This document shows positions 17,649 to 34,102 of a stretch of DNA of 40,237 nucleotides, in pieces; the stretch's first letter is position 1, and each line of letters starts with the position of its first letter. This stretch comes from Gemmatimonadota bacterium (GTDB lineage: Bacteria; Gemmatimonadota; Gemmatimonadetes; Gemmatimonadales; Gemmatimonadaceae). The notes beneath the pieces were generated by a model, which worked only from the letters and a program-made list of their open reading frames with translations, did not search any database and was not told where the DNA came from. Both the position numbers and the translations under genes were made by a program. The DNA lies in the NCBI GenBank assembly GCA_026387915.1, contig JAPLKS010000002.1, positions 1-40,237 on the forward strand, in the 5' to 3' direction.

Positions 17649-20192
17649 TTACGATTCCCGCAACGCCGCCATCGGAGTTTCGCGAAACACGTCCCGTCCC
17701 GTCAGGAAGCCGATGCCCACCGCCAGTGCCATCATGGCAAACGCAATCAGCAGGGCAGGCAGCACGGCGGGCGCGAATGTTCCCTTGAAGACAAAAGTGA
17801 TCAGCGCCCACGCACCGCCAAACGAGAGCACCATCCCAGCCAACGCGCCGAGTGCGCCGAGCAGGAGATACTCGGAGAGGAGGATACGCCCAATCTGCGC
17901 GCGCGTGGCGCCCAGTGTCTTGAGCAGCACGCCTTCGCGCAACCGATCTCGGCGCGTGGCGGCCACGGCACTGAATAGCACCGGCACGCCCATCGCCATG
18001 CTGAACAATGTGAGGAAGCGCACGGCCATCGATACCTTGGTCACGATCTGCGCGACGGTGCGTCGCACGAGGGAGAGATCCAAGCTCGAAATGTTCGGAT
18101 AGCGCGTGACCGTCAGCCGCTGAATTCGCGCAATCGTCGTGTCGCTCGGCACGGCAACTATGGTCGCGAACTGTTTGGGCGCCTGCTCGAGCGCCTTGGG
18201 CGCGAGTACGGCAAAGAAGTTGGGCTCAAAGCGGCCCCAGTCCACCTCGCGGAGGCTCGTGAGGCGCGTGCGAATGCGCACCCCTTGCACGTCCCACGTG
18301 ATGATGTCGCCGAGCGTCACCTTCAGTTGGCCCGCCACGTCCTGCTCGAGTGAGACTTCGGAGATGGAGTCTGGCAGTGTCGTGCGCCCGAGCCAGACGC
18401 CACTGATGAGTTTTTCCGTGGCGACCATCGTGTCGCGGTAGGTAGAGCGGTACTCGCGACGCAGTGACCAGTGGTTGCCTTGGAGTCCGTGTGATTTGGC
18501 CCACGCGCCGGGATCCTGACCATTGAGCGCCGCGACTTTCATGGTGACAATGGGGGCGTAGCCAATCGCGTGCTGCCCTGTGCTGGCGAGAATGGAATCG
18601 ACGCCGGCGCGCTGGTCTTCCTGAATGTCGAACATGATCAGGTTGCCTTTGGACCGCTCGGCGGTGATGTCAAATTGTTTGAGCAAGTTCGACTGCACCA
18701 GAAAGAGCGTGCTCACCAGAAACGCACCAAAGCCGAGTGCGAGCACCACCGACCGTGTTTGATTGGCGGGGCGGTAGAGGTTGGCCACGCCTTGGCGCAC
18801 CACGTACGGCCAGCGCGCTGTGACCATGCGTCGTGCCAGCCAGGCCAGCGCGGACGCGCTCAGCCACAGCACGAGCATCGACGCCGCGATGCCAGCAGCA
18901 AACAGCGCACCGCGCGGCCACGACCCGGCGCGCTGCACGGAGAGAAATAGCACGCCGGCCACGAGCGTGATGTTGACCAGATGCGTGGGAATGTCGGTGA
19001 GCCGCGCTTTGTCGAGTGCGGCGGCGTCGCGACGGAGTGCCTGCAGCGGCGAGACGCGTCGCACCACGAGCAAGGGCCGCAACGCGAACACCAACGCCAC
19101 GCCCACGCCAATGGCGAGTCCGAGTGCAATGGCCCGCCAGTCGAGCGTGACGCGCACATCCACCGGAAGAAAATCTTGAATCGCGAGCGGAAGGAGGAAC
19201 TGAATGACCACGCCCAGCGCCGTGCCTAGCGCCGCGCCCAATAAGCCCATGACGGTCGCTTGCAGCACGTAAATCGCCAGCACTTGTCCGCTGGTGGCGC
19301 CGAGGCAGCGCAGCACCGCTACCGTGTCGATTTTGCGCGTGACGAACGCATGTACACCACTTGCTACGCCAATGCCGCCGAGCAAAAGCGCAATCAGCCC
19401 CACGATGCCAAGGAAGTCGGCGAGCCGGCCGATGTCTTGGGTGAGGTTTTGTTCGCGCTGCGTGACGGTGGTGACGCGCACATTTTCTTTTTGGAATCGC
19501 GGCCGGAGCGGTGCGACCCACTTGGCACTCACCGTGGTGGGCGAGAGCTTGACGAGCACGTCGTAGCTCGCGCGGCTGCCAAAGCCCAAGAGTTGTGTTT
19601 CGGGAATGAAGCGCGCAGGGATGTACACGCGCGGCCCGATGGCTGCGGCTACGCCTGGGTCTCCCGGCACGCTGGTGACGGTGCCGAGGATCTCAAACTT
19701 GGCGTAGCCCACATTGAGCGTGTCGCCAATCTGTGCGTCGAGCGTAATGAGCAGCCCGGGATCCACCAGCGCGTAGGCGCCGCTATGCAATCGCCCCCAC
19801 GCGGCAGCTGGCGACGACTCCACCGTGCCATAGAGCGGCCAGTTGGCGGTAATGCCTTTGATCTGCACCAAGCGCGTGCCGCCACTGCGCGGTGCCATGG
19901 CCATAGAGCCGAAGGTCACCACGCGAGCGACGGGCGTGCCGCGCGTTTCGATGGAGTCGATGGCCTTGAGCAGCGGATCGGGGAAGCGCTGGTTGGCCGA
20001 AAAACTGACGTCGCCGCCGAGGATGCTGCGCGACTGCTCGCGAATGGAGCTTTGCACGTTGCTCGCAAACGAATCGATGGCTACGAGCGCGGCCACGCCG
20101 AGCGAGATGGACGACATGTAGAGCAGCAGTCGGCGGCGCGCCGTGCGGCTTTCGCGCCAGGCGAGGCTGAAGATGGCGGACCAGCGTCTCAC
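17649..20192 (-). CDS. ybbP: ABC transporter permease, YbbP/FtsX family
   Basis: An 847-aa inner-membrane protein and partner of the ATPase encoded just upstream (4-bp GTGA overlap at 20189-20192, GTG start). An N-terminal membrane anchor (about 22-42) is followed by a periplasmic domain, a first FtsX membrane block around residues 250-390 (ADFLGIVGLIALLLGGIGVASGVHAFV), further membrane helices, a second periplasmic domain and a C-terminal FtsX block (SMAMGVPVLFSAVAATRRDR and onward) ending in the typical GRDVFRETPMAALRES. Two FtsX modules in one chain of about 800 aa is the YbbP layout. Such MacB-superfamily systems use ATP for work across the envelope, such as lipoprotein or lipid handling, rather than ordinary import. 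Confidence 0.88.
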   Translation of the reverse strand: MRRWSAIFSLAWRESRTARRRLLLYMSSISLGVAALVAIDSFASNVQSSIREQSRSILGGDVSFSANQRFPDPLLKAIDSIETRGTPVARVVTFGSMAMAPRSGGTRLVQIKGITANWPLYGTVESSPAAAWGRLHSGAYALVDPGLLITLDAQIGDTLNVGYAKFEILGTVTSVPGDPGVAAAIGPRVYIPARFIPETQLLGFGSRASYDVLVKLSPTTVSAKWVAPLRPRFQKENVRVTTVTQREQNLTQDIGRLADFLGIVGLIALLLGGIGVASGVHAFVTRKIDTVAVLRCLGATSGQVLAIYVLQATVMGLLGAALGTALGVVIQFLLPLAIQDFLPVDVRVTLDWRAIALGLAIGVGVALVFALRPLLVVRRVSPLQALRRDAAALDKARLTDIPTHLVNITLVAGVLFLSVQRAGSWPRGALFAAGIAASMLVLWLSASALAWLARRMVTARWPYVVRQGVANLYRPANQTRSVVLALGFGAFLVSTLFLVQSNLLKQFDITAERSKGNLIMFDIQEDQRAGVDSILASTGQHAIGYAPIVTMKVAALNGQDPGAWAKSHGLQGNHWSLRREYRSTYRDTMVATEKLISGVWLGRTTLPDSISEVSLEQDVAGQLKVTLGDIITWDVQGVRIRTRLTSLREVDWGRFEPNFFAVLAPKALEQAPKQFATIVAVPSDTTIARIQRLTVTRYPNISSLDLSLVRRTVAQIVTKVSMAVRFLTLFSMAMGVPVLFSAVAATRRDRLREGVLLKTLGATRAQIGRILLSEYLLLGALGALAGMVLSFGGAWALITFVFKGTFAPAVLPALLIAFAMMALAVGIGFLTGRDVFRETPMAALRES

Positions 20193-20902: not shown

Positions 20903-21722
20903 TCGAAAGATCGGAGAGAAGAGCGGCAAGCGGGCGTGGATCGCGGTCGCGGTCGGCGCACTGGCCTTGGGGGGCTGCGGAAAGCGGAGTGATGCCCCTG
21001 AATCGAAGGCCTCGGGGCGCGTTGGGGTTCCCGTGGAATCAACTACGGTGCCGACCACTGGGGCAACGGTGGGTGCGGGTGGGGCGGGGAGCACGCCCAG
21101 CCCGAATGGGGCGTTACCAACTGCGTCCTCGGAAGCGGCGACTGCGGTCCCTACGGGGCGTCGCCGCGTTTTGATTCTCGGCACCAGCCTCACTGCTGGA
21201 TACGGCCTCGACAACCCGCAGCGCGACGCCTACCCGGCGGTGTTGCAGCAGATTGCCGACTCTCTCGGGGTGGCCGCCGAGGTGATTGGAGCCGGGTTGT
21301 CTGGTGAGACGTCGGCTGGCGCGCTGCGTCGCGCCGATTGGGTGCTCAACCAGCCGGTGGACCTGTTTGTGCTTGAGACGGGCGCGAATGACGGGCTCCG
21401 CGGGTTGAACCCAGATTCCACGGCAGCGAATCTGCGCGCAATTATCGCGAAGGTGCGCACGTCGCATCCGGCGGCGCGTATTGCGCTGGTGCAGATGGAA
21501 GCACCGACGAATATGGGCGCGGCGTATACGCGGAGTTTTCACGCCGTGTTTGGGGCGGTTGCTGCGCAGGAGAAGGTGACGTTACTGCCCTTCTTGCTTG
21601 CGGGCGTGGCCGGCGATAAGGCGCTGAATCAGGGGGATGGGATTCATCCTACGCCGGAGGGTGCGCGGCGGGCGGCGCGGAATCTGTGGCCTATGTTACG
21701 CACACTCATCGCGACGCGTTGA
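20895..21722 (+). CDS. tesA: GDSL-type esterase/lysophospholipase, TesA-like lipoprotein
   Basis: Hydrolyses ester or thioester bonds of lipids in the periplasm, by family. The GTG at 20895 has GAGG 9 bases upstream and gives 275 aa; GTG 20880 or TTG 20877 are possible. A membrane segment ends in LGGC (Cys28), so this is a lipoprotein, unlike soluble TesA of enterobacteria. A Ser/Thr/Ala-rich linker (about 30-88) leads to the SGNH domain: GTSLTAGYG with Ser98, Gly in GLSGETS (block II), GAND with Asn165, and DGIH with Asp248 and His251. All catalytic blocks are present. It is divergent from ybbA-ybbP, the same arrangement as tesA-ybbA-ybbP in Escherichia coli, which supports the naming of all three. 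Confidence 0.88.
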   Translation: MSIRKIGEKSGKRAWIAVAVGALALGGCGKRSDAPESKASGRVGVPVESTTVPTTGATVGAGGAGSTPSPNGALPTASSEAATAVPTGRRRVLILGTSLTAGYGLDNPQRDAYPAVLQQIADSLGVAAEVIGAGLSGETSAGALRRADWVLNQPVDLFVLETGANDGLRGLNPDSTAANLRAIIAKVRTSHPAARIALVQMEAPTNMGAAYTRSFHAVFGAVAAQEKVTLLPFLLAGVAGDKALNQGDGIHPTPEGARRAARNLWPMLRTLIATR

Positions 21723-21792
21723 ACGCTGAAAGGTGGTACTAGCGGACTGTAATGGAGTGCGACAGAATAGCCCCCATACAGCGATTCCGTTC

Positions 21793-21811
21793 CCTTGTCC
21801 CCCGGGCAAGG
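21793..21811. other. Small hairpin in the tesA-susC gap
   Basis: CCTTGTCC and GGGCAAGG can pair over 8 positions (one G-T pair) around three C. It lies 70 bp after the esterase gene and 53 bp before the SusC-type gene. No T-run follows. It might be a weak terminator or leader structure. The rest of the 141-bp gap shows no clear promoter. Confidence 0.25.
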
Positions 21812-21863
21812 TCCACCAGTTCCGGCACCGTCACTCAGTGCCGAGATTCGACGCGAGGTATGC

Positions 21864-24800
21864 ATGCTCGGACGAAGAATGTGTCGGTTGGGGCTCTTGT
21901 TGTTGCTCAGTATTGCTGGGCACAGCGCGAGTGCCCAAAGCGGTGCAACGATTACAGGTACGGTGCGAGATTCCGCGACGAAGGCCGCAGTGCCTGGCGC
22001 GCAGGTCTTTGTGCAAGGCGCGGCGGGAGTCGCGGCCATCGGAGGAGTGACGAACTCGTCCGGCGTGTACCGCATCACCGGCGTCCCAGCAGGCGAAGCA
22101 GCAATCCGGGTGCGTTTGCTGGGCTACAATCTTGCCCAGCGCACGGCGACGCTCACGAGTGGTCAAGTGAGCGTGGTTGATTTTGTGCTGGCGGCATCGA
22201 GTGCGCGCCTCGACCAGGTGGTCGTGACCGGAACCCCGGGTGGCACCCAGATGCGCGCCATCGGCAACGTCGTCGAAACAATCAAGACGTCGGATATCAC
22301 CAACACGGTTCCGACGGCCAATCTTGGCGAAGTGCTGGGCGGTCGTACGCCGGGCGTCACCATTTTGCCGTCCACAGGGCAAGTGGGCACCGGCGCGCAG
22401 ATCCGTATTCGCGGACTGAGCAGCCTCTCGCTCTCAAACGACCCGATTATCTACATCGACGGTGTGCGTGCGAACGCTGACGTCTCGCGCGGCACCACGC
22501 AGCGCGGCGGCGCGGGCGCAAGCCGACTCAATGACATCAATCCCGAGTCCATCCAGAGCATTGAAGTGATCAAGGGACCGGCTGCCGCAACGCTCTATGG
22601 CACCGAAGCCTCGAACGGCGTGATCCAGATCATCACCAAGCGCGGCGCCACAGGAAAAGCCTCGTGGGATTTTTCCACACGCGCCGGCAATAGCTGGATT
22701 CGCAATCCCTCAGAGCGTTCGGGGTTGCTGTACGGGAAGGACGCGGGCGGAAACCTCGTCAACTTCAATCTGTGGGATCACGAAATCGCCTCTGGTCATC
22801 CGGCCGTCTTCGGTACGGGACTGGGGCAGGGCTACAACATCAGCGTACGCGGCGGCACCGACGCGGCGCGGTATTTCAATACGATCGGCTGGGATGACGA
22901 CGGTGGCGTGGTCGCGTGGAACTGGAGCCGCAAGCTGTCGCTGCGATCCAACCTCGATCTGCTCCTGACGGACAAGCTCAAAATCTCGACGAGTGCGTCG
23001 TACATTCGCTCGCGCATCCGACTCGTGCAGGGGTCGCTCTCGATCGATCCGTTCAGCAATCTGATGTGGGGTTCTCCGCTCACGCAGAACCTGGCGCAGC
23101 GCGGCTTCAGTACGGCGCCGCCAGAAGTCGAAAAAACGGTGGCGGACCGCGCCGATAACGACCGCACCACGTTCAGTATTACGACCAACTACTTCCCGAC
23201 GACCTGGTTCACGCATCGGCTCGTGCTGGGTATGGACAACAACGCCGAGAACAACTCGCTGTTGTATCCGCGCGATCCGCTCGGCAGCCTGAGCTTGTTC
23301 GGGTCGCTCGGCACTGGGAGTAAGCGTGTGGAGCGCGCCGCCTCGAACTACCTGACGCTCGACTACTCTGGCGTCGCGAAGTACTCGCGTGGCGAGAACC
23401 TCCAGTTCAAAACGGCCGTCGGCTTTCAGTACTACCGGCGAGAAATAAGCACGATCTCGGCGACGGGCACAAACTTCCCGGCGATTCCGATCACGACCGT
23501 CAGCGGTGGCGCCACGCTCACGGGCTCGGAAGACTACCTCGCGAACGCCACGCTCGGTTTGTATGTGGAACAGCAAGCGGCGTGGAACAACCGCGTATTC
23601 GTGACGGCGGCCGTCCGCGGCGACGACAACAGCGCGTTCGGTAAGCACTTCAAGGCGGCGTACTATCCCAAGCTGAGCGGCGCGTGGGTGATCAGCGAAG
23701 AACCGTTCTGGGGGAAGGTGCAGTACGTGAAGGAGCTGCGTTTGCGTGCGGCCTGGGGCGCGGCTGGGACGCAGCCCGGTACGTTCGATGCGGCGCGGCT
23801 CTACAATCCCGACGTCGGATACAAAGATCAGCCGTCGCTCGTGCCGTCCTCGTACGGCAATCCGGAACTCAAGCCGGAGCGCAGCGAAGAACTCGAAGGT
23901 GGTTTTGAAGCGTCGTTGTTCAATGGCAAGCTCGACGTGGCGTACAGCCACTATGCGCGTAACGTCAAGGACGCGATCGTCAACATGCCGTTGCCGCCAT
24001 CGGTTGGCTTCCCGGGTTCACAGATTGTGAACGTCGGTGCCGTCAAAGGGTGGGGCGACGAACTCAGCGCCACGTACCACGTCATTGAACGCCAGAACTT
24101 CGGTTGGGACATCGGCGGTCAGTATTCGGTGAATGGCAACCGCATCGACAATCTCGGCGGGTTGGCCTTTATCACCGTCGGACAGGGCGGCATGGCGCAG
24201 AACCGCGTCGGCTTCTCCATCGGCGATATTTTCATGTACAAGATTCTGTCGGCCAAGATCGACGCCACGGGCGCCGTCACGGAATCCATTTGTGACGGTG
24301 GCACCGGGAAGGCCGGGCTCGAACAGGGTGGCGCGCCGATGCCGTGCGCACAGGCGCCCCGTGTGTAGTGGGGCCATTCGCAACCGACCTGGACGGCGGG
24401 GCTCAACTCCACGTTCACGTTCTTCAAGTCGTTGCGTCTGTTTGTGCAGGTCGATGGCAACGGTGGCAACTACATGGATGACACCGAAATTCGCGCCCTT
24501 CACAATCTCGGGTTGACGAAGGCCGTCATTCTCCGCAACGATCCAATGTTGCAGGCGTATCGCGCCATCGAAGCGGATGCCGTCGGTACTTATAAGGCCG
24601 GATTCCTCAAGGTGCGTGAATTGTCGGCGACGTATTCGTTCGACAAGCGCGTGCTGAGCCACATTGGGGCCAGCGCCGGCTCGATCAGTCTGGCGGGTCG
24701 CAACCTTATGACACTCTGGACGGCCGCCAATGGGTGGAACACCTCCCGCGACGGCATGGTGATGGTGCCCATCGCTGGCATGCACGTATGGGACGTCGAG

Positions 24801-24890
24801 ACACGCCCGGTGGGCCAGATCTCGAACGGCTTCCAGACGATCATGCCGCCGGTGACGTCGGCGACGTTCACCATTCGGCTTTCCTACTAA
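21864..24890 (+). pseudogene. SusC/RagA-type TonB-dependent receptor, interrupted by an in-frame TAG
   Basis: An outer-membrane transporter of the SusC class, which works with the SusD-type lipoprotein encoded next. ATG 21864 follows GAGG. A signal peptide (about 1-23) is followed by a carboxypeptidase-regulatory-like domain (ATITGTVRDSATKAAVPGAQV), a plug (VVVTGTPGG, ILPSTGQVGTGAQIRIRG, IEVIKGPAAATLYGTEASNGVI) and a long barrel. At codon 835 (24366-24368) a TAG stops the frame. The same frame then continues from WGHSQPTWTAG to the natural end of the barrel (...SATFTIRLSY, stop ending at 24890), about 173 more residues. The sequences on both sides join as one normal SusC C-terminus. The stop replaces one codon; family context suggests an aromatic residue such as Tyr (TAC/TAT), one base away. 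Without readthrough the last barrel strands are lost. Confidence 0.85.
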
Positions 24891-24896
24891 CAGCGG

Positions 24897-26156
24897 ATGA
24901 CGACCATTATGAAAAAGACTCTCCACGCGGTCGCCTCGCTGAGCTTCGCGCTCTGGTTGACCGCCTGCAATAGCTTGCTCGATGTCACAACGCCTGGCCG
25001 CGTCGCGGCCGAGACGCTCAATGATCCTTCGATGGCCGTGGTGCTCGAGTCCGCGGCGATGCAGCAGTTTCAGTGCGCGTTCGGATCGTGGGTGACTACG
25101 GCCGGTGTCATGTCCGGCGAATACCTCGTCTCCAACAACCTCGTGAACTCCAATCTGTGGGGTTGGCGCGGTACGGAAATTCTCACGGCCCCGGGCACGT
25201 GCGCGACGTCACGCACGGCGACCGACCTTGGGTATTACACGCCCATGCAGAGCGCGCGGTTCCAGAACGAAGATGCGTTCGCACGGATCTCGACGCTCAC
25301 CGATGCGCAGGTGCCGACGCGGCAGAAAATCCTCGCCGAAATGTCGGTGTACTCGGGATGGGCGTACTTGTTACTCGGCGAAGGGATGTGCGAAATGACG
25401 GTGAATAGCGGGCCGAAGATCACGCCGGCCCAAACGATGGCGCTCGCGGAAACGCAGTTCACCACCGCGCTTACCTATGCGGCCACCGCGAACGACAACG
25501 ATCTCAAGAATTTTGCGTTGGCGGGTCGCGCACGTGCGCGCCTCAACCTCGCGAACCTCCCGGGCGCGGCCGCCGACGCCGCGCAGGTGTTGCCCGTGGG
25601 TTGGCAGCGCCTCGCCGAATTTTCGGAATCGCGTCCGGCGCGCGAGAACAAGCTTTACAACATGACCATTCGCAACGACTTCCTCTCCGTGGCACCGGCG
25701 TACCGGGCGCTCACCGTGGGTGGTGTGGCGGACACGCGTGTGAAGGTGCTGAACCCGAATCGCAACGGGCAGGACGGGCTCACACCGCTCTACATCCAGC
25801 AGAAGTTCCTCGGCAACGGCGCCGTCGGTTTGCCGATCGCGTCGTGGAAAGAATCGCAGCTCATCTACGCTGAGGCGGTGGGTGGTCAGGCGGCGAAGGA
25901 CGCCATCAACGCGGTGCGTACGGCCGCCGGTGTCCCGAAGCTCGACGGCACCGAGACCAGCGACATCACGGCACTCGTGCTCGAGGAGCGCCGGCGCTCC
26001 CTGTTTAGCGAAGGGCAGCGCTACTCGGACATGATTCGCAAGAACTTGCCGTTCCCCACGGGCGTCAATGCCAAGCAGCAGACGTACGGTCCGATCACGT
26101 GCATCCCACTGCCGAACATTGAGACGCAGAACAACCCGAATCTGCAGGGCAAGTAG
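24897..26156 (+). CDS. SusD/RagB-family outer-membrane lipoprotein
   Basis: Surface lipoprotein that captures substrate for the SusC-type receptor encoded 6 bp upstream. From ATG 24897 the protein has 419 aa; ATG 24909 (MKKTLHAV) is as likely. The signal ends in LTAC (Cys24 from the first start), followed by NSLLDVTTPGRV, the usual start of mature SusD proteins in this group. The body is helical with TPR-like stretches (AEMSVYSGWAYLLLGEGMCEM, NFALAGRARARLNLANLPGAAADA) and near the end has ESQLIYAEAV, INAVRTAAGVP and VLEERRRSLFSEGQRYSDMIR, which are SusD landmarks. It is intact, unlike its partner. Confidence 0.9.
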   Translation: MTTIMKKTLHAVASLSFALWLTACNSLLDVTTPGRVAAETLNDPSMAVVLESAAMQQFQCAFGSWVTTAGVMSGEYLVSNNLVNSNLWGWRGTEILTAPGTCATSRTATDLGYYTPMQSARFQNEDAFARISTLTDAQVPTRQKILAEMSVYSGWAYLLLGEGMCEMTVNSGPKITPAQTMALAETQFTTALTYAATANDNDLKNFALAGRARARLNLANLPGAAADAAQVLPVGWQRLAEFSESRPARENKLYNMTIRNDFLSVAPAYRALTVGGVADTRVKVLNPNRNGQDGLTPLYIQQKFLGNGAVGLPIASWKESQLIYAEAVGGQAAKDAINAVRTAAGVPKLDGTETSDITALVLEERRRSLFSEGQRYSDMIRKNLPFPTGVNAKQQTYGPITCIPLPNIETQNNPNLQGK

Positions 26157-26157
26157 G

Positions 26158-27603
26158 ATGACACCACGCGCAGCATTCACCGCGCGTGTGCGTCGAGGGC
26201 TCGCCGCGCTGGCGGCCCTCGGCGCCTGCGCGCTGGGCGCGTCGGCCACCGCCGGCGCGCAGGCACCAAGTTCGGAACCACTGATCATTCGCGGCGGTTG
26301 GATCTTTGATGCCGTAAAATCAGACGTACGGCGCAACATCGGCGTTGTCGTGATGAGCGGAAAGCTGGTAGAAGTCGACGCCAAGCTGGCCGGCCGCAGT
26401 ACGGCCGGATACAAGGTCGTAGAGCTGGCTGACGACGAGTATCTCCTGCCGGGATTCTTTGATTTGCACGCGCATTACAATGTAAATCTCTTTGGCAAGA
26501 ATCGTCGCGACGAAACTCTGGTGCAGCCGGTGGTGTTCTTGGCCAACGGTGTGACCTCCACGTTCCCGGGCGGCGAGTACAATCCTGACGATATGGCCGC
26601 GATGCGCGATCGCATCGAGAGTGGACAGCAACCTGGTCCGCGGCTGATGCGCTCGGGCGCCTACTTTGGCCGCACGCGTCCGGGGTGGGACGTCAACATG
26701 ACGCCGGAGCAGGTGTATGCCGACGTTGATCATTGGGCCGCGCAAGGGGTGCGCGCGTTCAAGGCCAAGGGCATTGGTCCCGTCCAACTGCGCGCGCTCA
26801 TTGAGCGTGCGCACTGGCACGGTGCCACCGTCACGGGTCACCTCGACTCGGGCTTTCAGGGAAGTGTGAATCCGAAGGATGCGATTCTCATGGGCATTGA
26901 TCGCATCGAACACTTCATGGGAGGCGACGCGCTGCCGGCCACGCAGTCGGCGTACGCGTCGCTCGTGAATCTCGACGTCAACTCCAAAGAGTTTAAAGAG
27001 ATTGTGCAGCTGTACCTGCGGTATCGCGTCAACTTTGATGCGACGATCACGGCGTACGGCTACACGTCGGATCATACCACGGATGATGCCTTCGCCTCGT
27101 GGTACGACGAGCGCTCCTTTTTTACGCCGTACGTGCGGGCGGAGCAGGCTGCTAAAACCGAAGCGCGCCGCCCCAATGCGTCGTTCGACAAGATCTATCG
27201 CGTCAAAAACGCCGAGATCAAAGCGTTCTACGACGCCGGCGGTGGCGACCTGATCACCACCGGTACCGACTACCCGAGCACGGGCGAGTTCTTGCCTGGC
27301 TTCTCGCTCCACCGCGAGATGTTCGCGATGGTGCGCGCTGGGTTGCCGGCCGCCGCGGTGCTGAAGATCGCAACGATCAACGGCGCGCGCGCGATTGGCG
27401 TGGGGGACAAACTCGGCACCATCGAAGTGGGCAAGCTCGCCGACCTCGTGGTGGTCAAGGGAAATCCCGTCAAAGACATTCGCAACACACACAACGTGCA
27501 GAAAGTATTCAAAGCCGGGACAGCGTACGATCCGGCTACGTTGTTCAAGTCGGTGCAGGGCAAGCTGGGGCCGGCAAACAAGGATGAGGCCACCAAGTGG
27601 TAG
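26158..27603 (+). CDS. Secreted amidohydrolase
   Basis: A 481-aa metal-dependent hydrolase exported by a signal peptide (about 1-35, ending TAGAQA). It starts 1 bp after the SusD stop, so the three genes form one operon. Metal and active-site positions of the amidohydrolase superfamily are visible: HAH at 104-106 in LPGFFDLHAHYN, a His in ATVTGHLDS, a His in DRIEHFMGGD and Asp in TTGTDYPS. The C-terminal part has the usual GVGDKLGTIEVGKLADLVVVKGNP. A typical catalytic Lys is not certain. Such exported enzymes beside SusC/SusD often act on dipeptide-like or cyclic amide compounds; the precise substrate is unknown. A strong hairpin follows 57 bp downstream. Confidence 0.87.
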   Translation: MTPRAAFTARVRRGLAALAALGACALGASATAGAQAPSSEPLIIRGGWIFDAVKSDVRRNIGVVVMSGKLVEVDAKLAGRSTAGYKVVELADDEYLLPGFFDLHAHYNVNLFGKNRRDETLVQPVVFLANGVTSTFPGGEYNPDDMAAMRDRIESGQQPGPRLMRSGAYFGRTRPGWDVNMTPEQVYADVDHWAAQGVRAFKAKGIGPVQLRALIERAHWHGATVTGHLDSGFQGSVNPKDAILMGIDRIEHFMGGDALPATQSAYASLVNLDVNSKEFKEIVQLYLRYRVNFDATITAYGYTSDHTTDDAFASWYDERSFFTPYVRAEQAAKTEARRPNASFDKIYRVKNAEIKAFYDAGGGDLITTGTDYPSTGEFLPGFSLHREMFAMVRAGLPAAAVLKIATINGARAIGVGDKLGTIEVGKLADLVVVKGNPVKDIRNTHNVQKVFKAGTAYDPATLFKSVQGKLGPANKDEATKW

Positions 27604-27656: not shown

Positions 27657-27713
27657 AAAAAAACACGGAGGGGATCGCGCCGAACCATTGGCGCGATCCC
27701 CTCCGTGTTTCTT
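27657..27713. terminator. Bidirectional intrinsic terminator
   Basis: A perfect 21-bp stem (27661-27681 with 27690-27710) with an 8-base loop lies between the convergent amidohydrolase and S9 peptidase genes. Read on the - strand, the stem is followed by a run of seven T, making a textbook terminator for the peptidase gene. On the + strand the stem ends in GTTT followed by CTTCT, a weaker T tract. Confidence 0.88.
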
Positions 27714-27731: not shown

Positions 27732-29765
27732 CTACGCCTTGGGTTTGGTGAACCAGCGATCATACCACGTGATGGAACGCTGCATGGCGTCAATCACGTG
27801 CTTGGTCTCGCGCAGTCCGTGCCCTTCGCGCGGGTACCGCAGCATCTGCGTCTCCACCCCCACGTCGCGGAGCGCCACGTAGAACTGCTCGGCTTCGGCG
27901 ATCGGCACGTCGTTGTCGTTTTCGCCGTGAATAAAGAGCACGGGCGTATGCACGCGCGACACATACCGCAGTGGCGAGCGGGCCCAGAGCGTGTCCATCA
28001 AGGCGCCCTCGTGCGGGAACTTGCCAAACTCCACGGCTAAGTAGTCGTGATAGTACGAGAGATAATTTTGCGTGATAAGGTTGCTGATGCCGGCGCGCGG
28101 AATGGCCGCCTGAAAGCGATCGGTGCGCGTGACGAGCCAGTTGGTGAGCTGCCCGCCATAGCTGCCGCCCTCCACGCCAAGCCGCGACGCATCAATCCAC
28201 GGATACTTCGCGATCGCCGAATCGAGTGCGACGAGCACGTCTTCGGCTTCGGCGCCGTCTTGGTCGCCGAAGATCGCGTCCGCGTGCGCCTGTCCATAGC
28301 CGGTGGAGCCGCGGTAGTTCACCATCAGCACGCCAAAGCCATGTGAGGCGTAGATCTGCGCCGACGAGTTGAACGCCGCGCCCTGCTGACCGTGCGGGCC
28401 GCCGTGCATGAGCACAATCAACGGCGCCTTGCCCGCCGTCAGCTCCAGTGGGCGCGTGAGAAATGATTGTACGGGGCGGTCTTTGACGCTGCGGACGGTA
28501 AACGAATCCACCCCCGCGATGCGTCGCTGAGCGAGCAGGCTATCGCTCAGCGCGGTCACGCGCCGCGTGGTGCCGCGCGCATCGCGCCAATAGAGTTCGC
28601 TCGGGTTTGCTGGAGTCGAAAAGGCATACGCCACCGCGCCGTCCGGTGCCACCGACCACGATCCCAGCGTGCCCGTGCCGCCAACGACGAGTTGGGCTGC
28701 GGTGCCGCTTACGGCTTGCCGGTACAAATGCACGTTGCCGTGCTCCTGCGCGGAGAAATACAGCGCCGAACCATCGGAGGCCCACTGCGGCGCGCCCTGC
28801 CGGTTGTCGAGCGTTGCAACTTCGCGTCGTGCGGAGCCGTCGGCGCGCATCACCCAGCTGTGCGTGTCCTCCATGGTTGTTTCGGAGGAGGTGAGATCGC
28901 GCTTGGTGCCTTGGAAAGCGATCCAGCTTCCGTCTGGCGACCAGGCCGGCGCATACTCGGCGCTTTTGGTGCTCGTGATGCGGCGTGTGGTGCCGTCGGC
29001 CACTCGGACCGCGAGCACATCATAGTTGAAGAACCGGTCCGGATCTTTCTCGCGATTGGACACGAAGAGGATTTCGTCGCCACGCGGGGACCAGTCGATG
29101 GAGTGCTCGTAGTAGTTGCCCGTGGTGAGCTGGCGCACCGCGTTGGTGTTGACGTTGGCGACAAAAATGTGTAGCCGCCGGTTGTCGTTGAACCGACTGA
29201 GCCCTTCGCCGGCGGTCGGTTTGTAGAGGTAGCGTGTGATCACCATGGGGTCGCCGCTGGCGTCGACCTCCGGGCCCGGTGTGGCCGAGATGAACGCGAT
29301 CTGGGTGCCATCGGGTGACCAGCTCAAGCGCTCGCCGCTGGTGGGGAGCGGATGGTTGGTACTCGTCACGTCGGCGACGAGATGCGCGCTGCTCCCATCT
29401 GCATTCGCGACCACCACCCCGTAGCGGGTTCCCTCGCGGCCGAGGTAGGCGATCCGGTCGCCTTTGGGTGCCCAACGGGCAGCAGACACCCCGGCGCCAT
29501 CTCGCCCAATAGGGGCCGAGGCGCCGCTCGCGAGTGTGACGAGGCGCACCTCCGACGTCGGGCGGCCGGCACTGTTGGAGTTGGTCACGGTGATCAGTGC
29601 TTGCAGGCCATTTGGCGAAAGCTGGACGTCGCTCACGGCCCTCAGCAGGTGCAGATCTTCAGCGGAGAATGGCTGCGGTCGCTGCGCCAAGGCTTTGGCG
29701 GTGCCGAGGACGGAAAGGCCGACGAGCAGGGCTCGGAGGCGACGTGTGGAGGCAAAGGCGGGCAT
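27732..29765 (-). CDS. S9-family prolyl oligopeptidase-like serine peptidase (secreted)
   Basis: A 677-aa exported peptidase cleaving short peptides, by family (DPP IV / acylaminoacyl peptidase group). ATG 29765 starts a signal peptide (about 1-28, ending AKALAQ). The N-terminal two thirds are WD40-like beta-propeller repeats (LSWSPDGTQIAFIS, IDWSPRGDEILFVSN, PAWSPDGSWIAFQG). The C-terminal alpha/beta hydrolase domain has HGGPHGQQG (oxyanion loop), GGSYGG with Ser535, Asp617 or Asp619 in GENDNDVP, and His649 in REGHGL. All catalytic residues are present. An open frame of 54 codons further upstream is Pro-rich and lacks a signal sequence, so it is not used. It is not adjacent to the second S9 gene at 32 kb and is clearly different in sequence. 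Confidence 0.92.
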   Translation of the reverse strand: MPAFASTRRLRALLVGLSVLGTAKALAQRPQPFSAEDLHLLRAVSDVQLSPNGLQALITVTNSNSAGRPTSEVRLVTLASGASAPIGRDGAGVSAARWAPKGDRIAYLGREGTRYGVVVANADGSSAHLVADVTSTNHPLPTSGERLSWSPDGTQIAFISATPGPEVDASGDPMVITRYLYKPTAGEGLSRFNDNRRLHIFVANVNTNAVRQLTTGNYYEHSIDWSPRGDEILFVSNREKDPDRFFNYDVLAVRVADGTTRRITSTKSAEYAPAWSPDGSWIAFQGTKRDLTSSETTMEDTHSWVMRADGSARREVATLDNRQGAPQWASDGSALYFSAQEHGNVHLYRQAVSGTAAQLVVGGTGTLGSWSVAPDGAVAYAFSTPANPSELYWRDARGTTRRVTALSDSLLAQRRIAGVDSFTVRSVKDRPVQSFLTRPLELTAGKAPLIVLMHGGPHGQQGAAFNSSAQIYASHGFGVLMVNYRGSTGYGQAHADAIFGDQDGAEAEDVLVALDSAIAKYPWIDASRLGVEGGSYGGQLTNWLVTRTDRFQAAIPRAGISNLITQNYLSYYHDYLAVEFGKFPHEGALMDTLWARSPLRYVSRVHTPVLFIHGENDNDVPIAEAEQFYVALRDVGVETQMLRYPREGHGLRETKHVIDAMQRSITWYDRWFTKPKA

Positions 29766-29987
29766 TCGTTGGCCTGGCGGCAAGGATGGCGGTCGGGGGA
29801 CTTCCGGTGGCGCAGGAGGGGCAGGGCTCCCCTCTGGGCTGCGCGGTAGAACGGTGCTCGGCAAACGTGCCCGTCCGGCGCCTGCAGGGCAAGAACGACT
29901 GGCAGGTGAGCCGCCTACCCAGAGCAAGCGCTAGGAGCCCGGCCGGCGGGCCCCTGAGCCTGTCCACCGGCAATCCCCCGCTAGCAG
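29766..29987. other. Gap between divergent S9 peptidase and efp, no gene seen
   Basis: This stretch lies upstream of both divergent genes. I see no coding region and no clear promoter for the peptidase. A short GC-rich inverted repeat (GAGGGG with CCCCTC, 7-base loop, near 29815-29833) is the only structure noticed. Confidence 0.4.
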
Positions 29988-31825: not shown

Positions 31826-31944
31826 GGCAGAGTCCAAGTGGCGCATTCTTGCCCCTGAGTGCTGGACGGCGACCAAGCCGAGCGTAGCTTATTCGACAGT
31901 CTGTTCGCGCGGACTGCGCGGCACATGCCGCAGGCTGCGCGCCT

Positions 31945-32011
31945 CGCCACGCATTTCGCCACGCATTTCGCCACGCATTTCGCCACGCATTTCGCCACGC
32001 ATTTCGCCACG
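31945..32011 (+). repeat. Twelve-base tandem repeat before the S9 peptidase start
   Basis: Five identical copies of CGCCACGCATTT (31945-32004) plus seven bases of a sixth, with no mismatch. The array ends 16 bp before the ATG at 32027, so it is in the 5' leader or overlaps the promoter. If an upstream start were used it would encode repeated Ala-Thr-His-Phe, since 12 keeps the frame. Confidence 0.95.
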
Positions 32012-32026
32012 TTCGCCGGAGCTCCT

Positions 32027-34102
32027 ATGCGCCGCCTTTCGTTCCGCACCGTCCCCTGTGCTGTGCTGTTGCTCGCCGCGGTCTTTGCCTTGGCACCGCG
32101 CGCCAACGCGCAGGCCAAGCGTCTGCAAGCCGCCGACATTTTCCAGTTGGAATACGCGGCGGAACCGCAAATATCCCCCGATGGTCAATGGGTGGCGTAT
32201 GTGCGGCAGTGGAGCGACAACATGACGGACCGTCGCCACAGCAATATTTGGCTCGCCAAAGTTGATGGCTCGCTGCACCGGCCGTTGACCTCAGGAAAGT
32301 TCGATGATGTGTCGCCGCGCTGGTCGCCGGATGGCAAGCGCCTCGCGTATGTGTCGAATCGGAGCGGGAGCGCGCAGCTCTACATCCGCTGGATGGACAC
32401 CGGTGAATCGTATGCACTCACCAATGGTGGCAATGCGCCCTCGGCGCCGACCTGGTCGCCCGATGGCACGCAGTTGGCATTCTTGCAGTTGGTGTCGAAG
32501 CCCGCGCTCATGGTCGGCACGCCGCTCGCGCCACCGGCCGGTGCCACTTGGTCGCCGCCGGCGAAGTACACCGATCAACTGGTCTTTCGCTTCAATGGCG
32601 TGGGCGAAGTGCCGCCTGGCTTCATGCACGCCTTTGTGGTGCGTGCCGACGGTGGTGCGGCGCGTCAGGTGACGAGTGGTGAGTTTCATCATGGCGGCAC
32701 GTCGTATGGCGGTGGATCACTTGCCTGGACGCCCGACGGCGCGGAGCTGATTCTCGCTGCACGCAGCGGCAAGAATCCGGAGTTCAACTCGCGTGAGTCG
32801 GATCTGTGGGCCGTTGGCGTCACGGATGGCAAGTCGCGACAGCTCACCGATCGCTATGGGCCGGACCAGAATCCGGCGGTGTCACCCGACGGCAAACTCA
32901 TCGCCTACACGGGCTACGACGACCGGCATCAAGGCTATCAGAACACGCTGCTCTACGTGATGAATCGCGATGGCTCGGGCAAGCGGGTCGTGTCGAGCAA
33001 GCTCGACCAGAGTGTGGCGAGCCCGGTCTGGAGCGCTGACGGTCGCGGCATCTATGTGCAATACGATGTGGAAGGGAACACCAAAGTCGCACTCATCGCT
33101 CTCGATGGCACGTTGCGCACGGTCGCCAGCAATATCGGTACGGGGTCGAGCGCGTACAGTGGCGGCAGTTATTCCGTGTCGCGCGATGGCACGGTGGCCA
33201 TCACGCTGAGTACGCCGACCATTCCCTCGCAGGTCGCGGTGACGACGGGTGCGGCGGGGGCTGCGGTGCGCACACTGACCTCGCTCAATAGCGATCTCCT
33301 CGCGAATCGCGTGATTGGCGCCACCGAGGAAATCTGGTACAAGTCGTCGAAGGACGGCCGGAAGATTCAGGGGTGGATCATCAAGCCGCCGAACTTTGAT
33401 CCCTCCAAGAAATATCCGTTCATCCTCGAGATTCACGGTGGCCCGTTTGCGAATTACGGCGACCGCTTTGACGAAGAAAAGCAGATCATGGCCGCCGCGG
33501 GCTACGTGGTGCTCTACACGAATCCGCGCGGCAGTACGAGCTACGGCGAGACCTTCGGCAACTTGATTCATCACGCGTACCCGGGCGACGATTTCTTTGA
33601 CCTCAACTCCGGCGTCGATGCGGTGATTGCCAAGGGGTATGTGGACGACAAGAATTTGTTCGTGACTGGTGGCAGCGGCGGCGGTGTGCTCACGGCGTGG
33701 ATGATTGGACACACCAACCGATTCCGCGCGGCGTTGGCTTTTTACCCGGTGATCAACTGGGAGAGCTTTGCGCTCACCGCCGACATGGCACCGGCCGCCG
33801 TCAACGATTGGTTCCCGGGCTTTCCGTGGGACAACCGCGAGAACTACGACAAGCGGTCATTGCTCTCGGTGGTGAAGAACGTGAAGACGCCGACGCTCAT
33901 TATGACGGGCGAAGAAGATTTCCGTACGCCGATGTCGGAGTCGGAGCAGTACTACAAGGCGCTCAAGATGACGGGGGTAGACGCGGTGCTGGTGCGCGTG
34001 CCCGAGGAGCCGCACGGAATTCGTCGTCGGCCGAGCCATGCGGCAGCGAAGCTGACAACGCTGGCGGGGTGGTTTGAGAAATACCGCGCCACGTTGCAGT
34101 GA
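32027..34102 (+). CDS. S9-family peptidase (secreted)
   Basis: A 691-aa exported serine peptidase of the acylaminoacyl peptidase/DPP IV group. ATG 32027 is preceded by GGAG five bases away and opens a signal peptide (about 1-29, ending RANAQA); the frame extends upstream through a tandem repeat but lacks a sensible start there. Beta-propeller repeats: ISPDGQWVAYV, PRWSPDGKRLAYVSN, PTWSPDGTQLAFL, LAWTPDGAELIL, PAVSPDGKLIAYTG. Catalytic domain: EIHGGPFANYG, GGSGGG with Ser550 (Gly replaces the more usual Tyr or His after Ser), Asp631 in TGEEDFRTP, His663 in EPHGIRRRPSH. This ending is typical of the subgroup. The next gene overlaps its stop by 4 bp. Confidence 0.92.
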   Translation: MRRLSFRTVPCAVLLLAAVFALAPRANAQAKRLQAADIFQLEYAAEPQISPDGQWVAYVRQWSDNMTDRRHSNIWLAKVDGSLHRPLTSGKFDDVSPRWSPDGKRLAYVSNRSGSAQLYIRWMDTGESYALTNGGNAPSAPTWSPDGTQLAFLQLVSKPALMVGTPLAPPAGATWSPPAKYTDQLVFRFNGVGEVPPGFMHAFVVRADGGAARQVTSGEFHHGGTSYGGGSLAWTPDGAELILAARSGKNPEFNSRESDLWAVGVTDGKSRQLTDRYGPDQNPAVSPDGKLIAYTGYDDRHQGYQNTLLYVMNRDGSGKRVVSSKLDQSVASPVWSADGRGIYVQYDVEGNTKVALIALDGTLRTVASNIGTGSSAYSGGSYSVSRDGTVAITLSTPTIPSQVAVTTGAAGAAVRTLTSLNSDLLANRVIGATEEIWYKSSKDGRKIQGWIIKPPNFDPSKKYPFILEIHGGPFANYGDRFDEEKQIMAAAGYVVLYTNPRGSTSYGETFGNLIHHAYPGDDFFDLNSGVDAVIAKGYVDDKNLFVTGGSGGGVLTAWMIGHTNRFRAALAFYPVINWESFALTADMAPAAVNDWFPGFPWDNRENYDKRSLLSVVKNVKTPTLIMTGEEDFRTPMSESEQYYKALKMTGVDAVLVRVPEEPHGIRRRPSHAAAKLTTLAGWFEKYRATLQ

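Follow-up and report, generated by a model that had tools for sequence, protein, structure and literature searches.

An in-frame amber codon in a gene for a SusC-type receptor from a Gemmatimonadota bacterium: a probable recent nonsense mutation

A gene for a SusC/RagA-type TonB-dependent receptor in a freshwater member of the Gemmatimonadota carries a TAG codon in frame, and the question that this locus raises is whether the codon ends the protein, is decoded, or does not exist in the cells. The window, by which we mean the whole stretch of DNA analyzed (40,237 nucleotides), is the entire contig C2 of a 3.58 Mb genome in 23 contigs. The first-pass annotation had described an amber codon inside one otherwise open SusC-type gene, and translation of 21864-24890 bore this out, recovering from the ATG at 21864 a single frame of 834 codons, the TAG at 24366-24368 and 173 further codons that begin WGHSQPTWTAGL and end IRLSY before the TAA at 24888-24890. 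Third-position G+C is 0.77-0.82 on both sides of the TAG, with no shift. The features of the locus are as follows.

21864-24365, + strand: SusC/RagA-type TonB-dependent receptor, N-terminal 834 codons (carboxypeptidase-regulatory-like domain, plug, barrel strands 1-17)
24366-24368, + strand: in-frame TAG; the column holds Tyr, Arg, Phe, Leu or Trp in 31 open orthologous loci
24369-24890, + strand: same-frame continuation, 173 codons and TAA, with the receptor's last five barrel strands
24897-26156, + strand: SusD/RagB-family gene (PF07980), intact, stop codon TAG
26158-27603, + strand: amidohydrolase gene, intact, stop codon TAG, syntenic in a genome of the same genus (G001)
27663-27708, unstranded: terminator-like hairpin of 20 pairs between the operon and a convergent S9 peptidase gene

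The interrupted receptor and its operon

In the N-terminal part of the receptor, the models PF13715 (carboxypeptidase-regulatory-like), PF07715 (plug) and PF00593 (TonB-dependent barrel) all exceeded their cut-offs, and the N-terminal 834 residues on their own scored 370.3 bits with TIGR04056 against a curated cut-off of 368.25. The 173-residue tail alone matched positions 817-959 of the 981 in TIGR04056 and aligned with open orthologues, so that the residues after the stop are, as had been proposed, those expected at a SusC C-terminus; judged from the sequence, 173 in-frame codons aligning in this way are no chance open frame. By its TIGR04056 match, its domains and its SusD partner, the gene belongs to the SusC/RagA TonB-linked outer membrane proteins, and it resembles known members of the family (RagA, 6sli; BT2264, 5fq6; BT1763, 5t3r; ButC, 8ypt) in domain order, in having the SusD partner gene directly downstream and in its predicted 22-strand barrel with plug. 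It differs from them in the in-frame stop that deletes the last five strands, which makes it a broken family member. The same genome holds about 18 paralogous receptor frames (869-1137 amino acids), all without an internal stop.

TonB-dependent transporters are expected to have 22 barrel strands, and the C-terminal strand is recognised by BAM and is normally needed for insertion into the outer membrane. The read-through protein was modelled from an alignment of 12 sequences with moderate confidence (mean pLDDT 63.7, pTM 0.63), and the model showed a plug and a 22-strand barrel when long strands were counted from residue 264 on. Its best solved matches were ButC, BT1763, BT2264 and RagA over residues ~120-1008 (Z ~32-36). 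The stop falls between predicted strands 17 and 18, with 17 strands preceding residue 835 and five following it (843-853, 857-867, 914-925, 938-953 and 998-1007), and if it is obeyed the translated product loses the final fifth of the read-through protein and does not form a complete barrel, making only 17 of the 22 predicted strands. Since strands 18-22, including the C-terminal strand, would be lost, loss of function is expected of the truncated receptor on the basis of this model.

The SusD and amidohydrolase frames downstream are both open, in agreement with the first-pass annotation. The susC-susD order was retained in all 15 of the relatives' loci examined, and in G001 the amidohydrolase gene adjoins susC-susD as well. 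The strong hairpin at 27663-27708 is a near-perfect inverted repeat with T-rich flanks on both strands, lying between convergent genes, and is a candidate two-way terminator. Two genes for S9-family (prolyl oligopeptidase-like) peptidases, at 27732-29927 and 31859-34102, lie near the SusCD-amidohydrolase unit, and the amidohydrolase weakly matches a Xaa-Pro dipeptidase model, below its cut-off. The peptidases nearby and this sub-cut-off match hint that peptides may be what the importer takes up, though this falls short of a test.

The stop column in relatives and the age of the codon

In an alignment of 31 orthologous loci, the frame is open across the stop column to the same C-terminus; a few of these loci are duplicate retrievals of one gene, and the independent genes are slightly fewer. 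The nearest relatives found are Gemmatimonadota metagenome bins. The tail is 54-64% identical to its closest relatives and aligns with the C-terminus of open orthologues. The column sits within the motif APRV-x-WGHSQPTW, and the residue standing in place of the stop, which the first-pass annotation had left to such an alignment, is most often Tyr (15 loci), otherwise Arg (7), Phe (5), Leu (3) or Trp (1); this variation argues against a conserved recoding signal. A search of 179 genomes of the family gave 27 with a match (E <= 1e-30) to the C-terminal 265 residues, and no copy other than the window's has a stop inside. Homologues whose protein ends naturally at this point had been named beforehand as grounds for abandoning the idea of a broken gene, and none was found among the 31 aligned loci or the 27 matches. 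Given that the orthologues are open through the column, the natural protein does not end there.

The tail itself gave no sign of accelerated change, since in a fixed 26-sequence tree the terminal branch leading to the window's gene made up 4.6% of total tree length after the stop and 3.9-5.1% before it. Decay of the tail was therefore of little use as a clock and yields only "recent". Comparison of the window with its sister genome G017 (~95-96% DNA identity here) gave a dN/dS of 0.044 for the part of susC that can be seen in both, its first third, of 0.082 for susD and of 0.047 for the amidohydrolase gene, by which measure the operon is under purifying selection. An undecayed tail together with such selection means that the stop is either very young or not in the cells at all.

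G017 was considered as a second witness of the stop and had to be set aside, since its assembly breaks inside susC: contig ends at window positions 22882 and 24780 flank the codon and leave it out. Compared with G017, the window shows ~13 differences across 21500-22882, is identical across 24780-25250 and diverges by ~5% elsewhere. Stretches of susC and its flanks (21500-22882 and 24780-25350) are near-identical between the two genomes, with a dS of 0.03 in the 5' part of susC, against ~0.15 in susD and the amidohydrolase gene; further patches of low divergence lie at 19000-19750 and 32250-33792. From this pattern, the two species may recently have exchanged by recombination a tract that includes the stop codon, and the near-identity is likely the reason why the G017 assembly broke inside susC.

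Decoding of TAG in this genome

All eight tRNAs in the window have ordinary anticodons, none of them CTA, as had been noted before, and the genome-wide check then called for likewise found no CTA among the anticodons read from the 48 tRNAs found. RF1 is present above its cut-off, accompanied by a second release-factor gene of lower score, presumably RF2, while nothing exceeded the cut-off for PylS (best match 25 bits versus 178). Stop codon usage was counted in four 100 kb stretches plus the window, ~440 kb in all. TAG closes 59 of the 220 long coding-like segments there, TAA 64 and TGA 97, and the SusD and amidohydrolase genes of the same operon both terminate with TAG. The same ~440 kb held 13 same-frame coding pairs parted by one stop. 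In 12 of them the two members appear to be adjacent genes, with the downstream one beginning a protein of its own beyond the stop; the only single split gene is the pair at 24366, and the further in-frame TAGs inside genes that the first-pass annotation had proposed to look for were not seen there. RNA 3' of the stop folded no better than shuffled sequences (z 0.54), and Rfam searches of the window returned tRNAs and nothing else.

Together, these data indicate that TAG is an ordinary stop in this genome. The locus is like UAG-recoding systems (pyrrolysine, genetic code 15 phages, suppressor tRNAs) in having an in-frame UAG with coding sequence beyond it, but differs in that there is no tRNA-CTA and no PylS, RF1 is present and TAG is the normal stop elsewhere. 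UAG recoding, including by pyrrolysine, was rejected given the lack of a CTA anticodon among the 48 tRNAs found, the presence of RF1, the lack of a PylS match above cut-off and the lack of any other TAG-split gene in ~440 kb. Our literature search found no paper on nonsense-broken SusC genes in Gemmatimonadota, and the phylum does not appear in the main text of a genetic-code screen (PMC8629427).

Explanations for the codon and their consequences

Among the causes that had been listed for the stop, a recent nonsense mutation, a mixed population and an assembly or base-call error survive, whereas readthrough is strongly disfavoured by the tRNA, RF1, PylS, TAG-usage and RNA-fold results. We consider it probable that the gene was broken very recently by a nonsense mutation at one base, which may be fixed in the population or still segregating there. 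Open orthologues, an undecayed tail, purifying selection and the use of TAG as a normal stop all argue for this reading, under which we infer that the TAG is real in the cells. The absence of decay fits a one-base consensus error just as well. Such an error, whether one wrong base in a metagenome contig or a consensus made chimeric by strains that occur together, would leave the gene intact in the cells, and a single substitution is all that separates the gene from an open frame. In addition, the assembly of the G017 metagenome bin broke in susC, and the near-identical sequence beside its breaks means that sequence shared by co-occurring relatives may have confused assembly. Against this, substitutions that create a stop are a small minority of consensus errors, neither the receptor paralogues nor the ~440 kb sampled show a further in-gene stop, and ~18 paralogues without one indicate that the assembly is not riddled with errors. 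We regard a consensus error as a serious possibility that is nevertheless rather unlikely.

The open and undecayed frame past the TAG would also fit true readthrough by a suppressor tRNA, pyrrolysine or a programmed mechanism giving a short and a long receptor. The negative tRNA, RF1, PylS, TAG-usage and RNA-fold evidence leaves this very improbable; moreover, no orthologue has a stop in what is a variable column, and a barrel short of five strands is an implausible product. Scarcely credible is a natural short receptor of 834 residues, or a tail re-initiated alone to complete a split barrel: a start-capable TTG does lie at 24432, 21 codons into the tail, but re-initiation there would drop predicted strand 18 (843-853), no short or split version occurs among the relatives, and we know of no split barrel of such a kind. 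A TAG acting as an on/off switch of the importer in part of the population (phase variation), conditionally read through or rapidly reverting, seems to us equally far-fetched.

Under a nonsense mutation, a single-base change would have created the TAG in this one receptor gene, RF1 would terminate translation after residue 834, and the product, missing strands 18-22 and with them the last strand for BAM insertion, would misfold and be degraded. The importer would be lost while SusD and the amidohydrolase are still encoded. The locus is like bacterial single-nonsense pseudogenes in having one stop in an intact frame, intact relatives and intact operon neighbours; it differs in a tail with no sign of decay yet and in being known from assembled sequence. 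Gene callers will give two fragments for this one gene (21864-24890). The significance of the event is small beyond the annotation of this genome, and its kind is ordinary: if real, it would be one more case in which a bacterium rich in paralogous receptors has lost one nutrient importer, and a reminder that coding sequence continuing past a stop does not by itself point to recoding.
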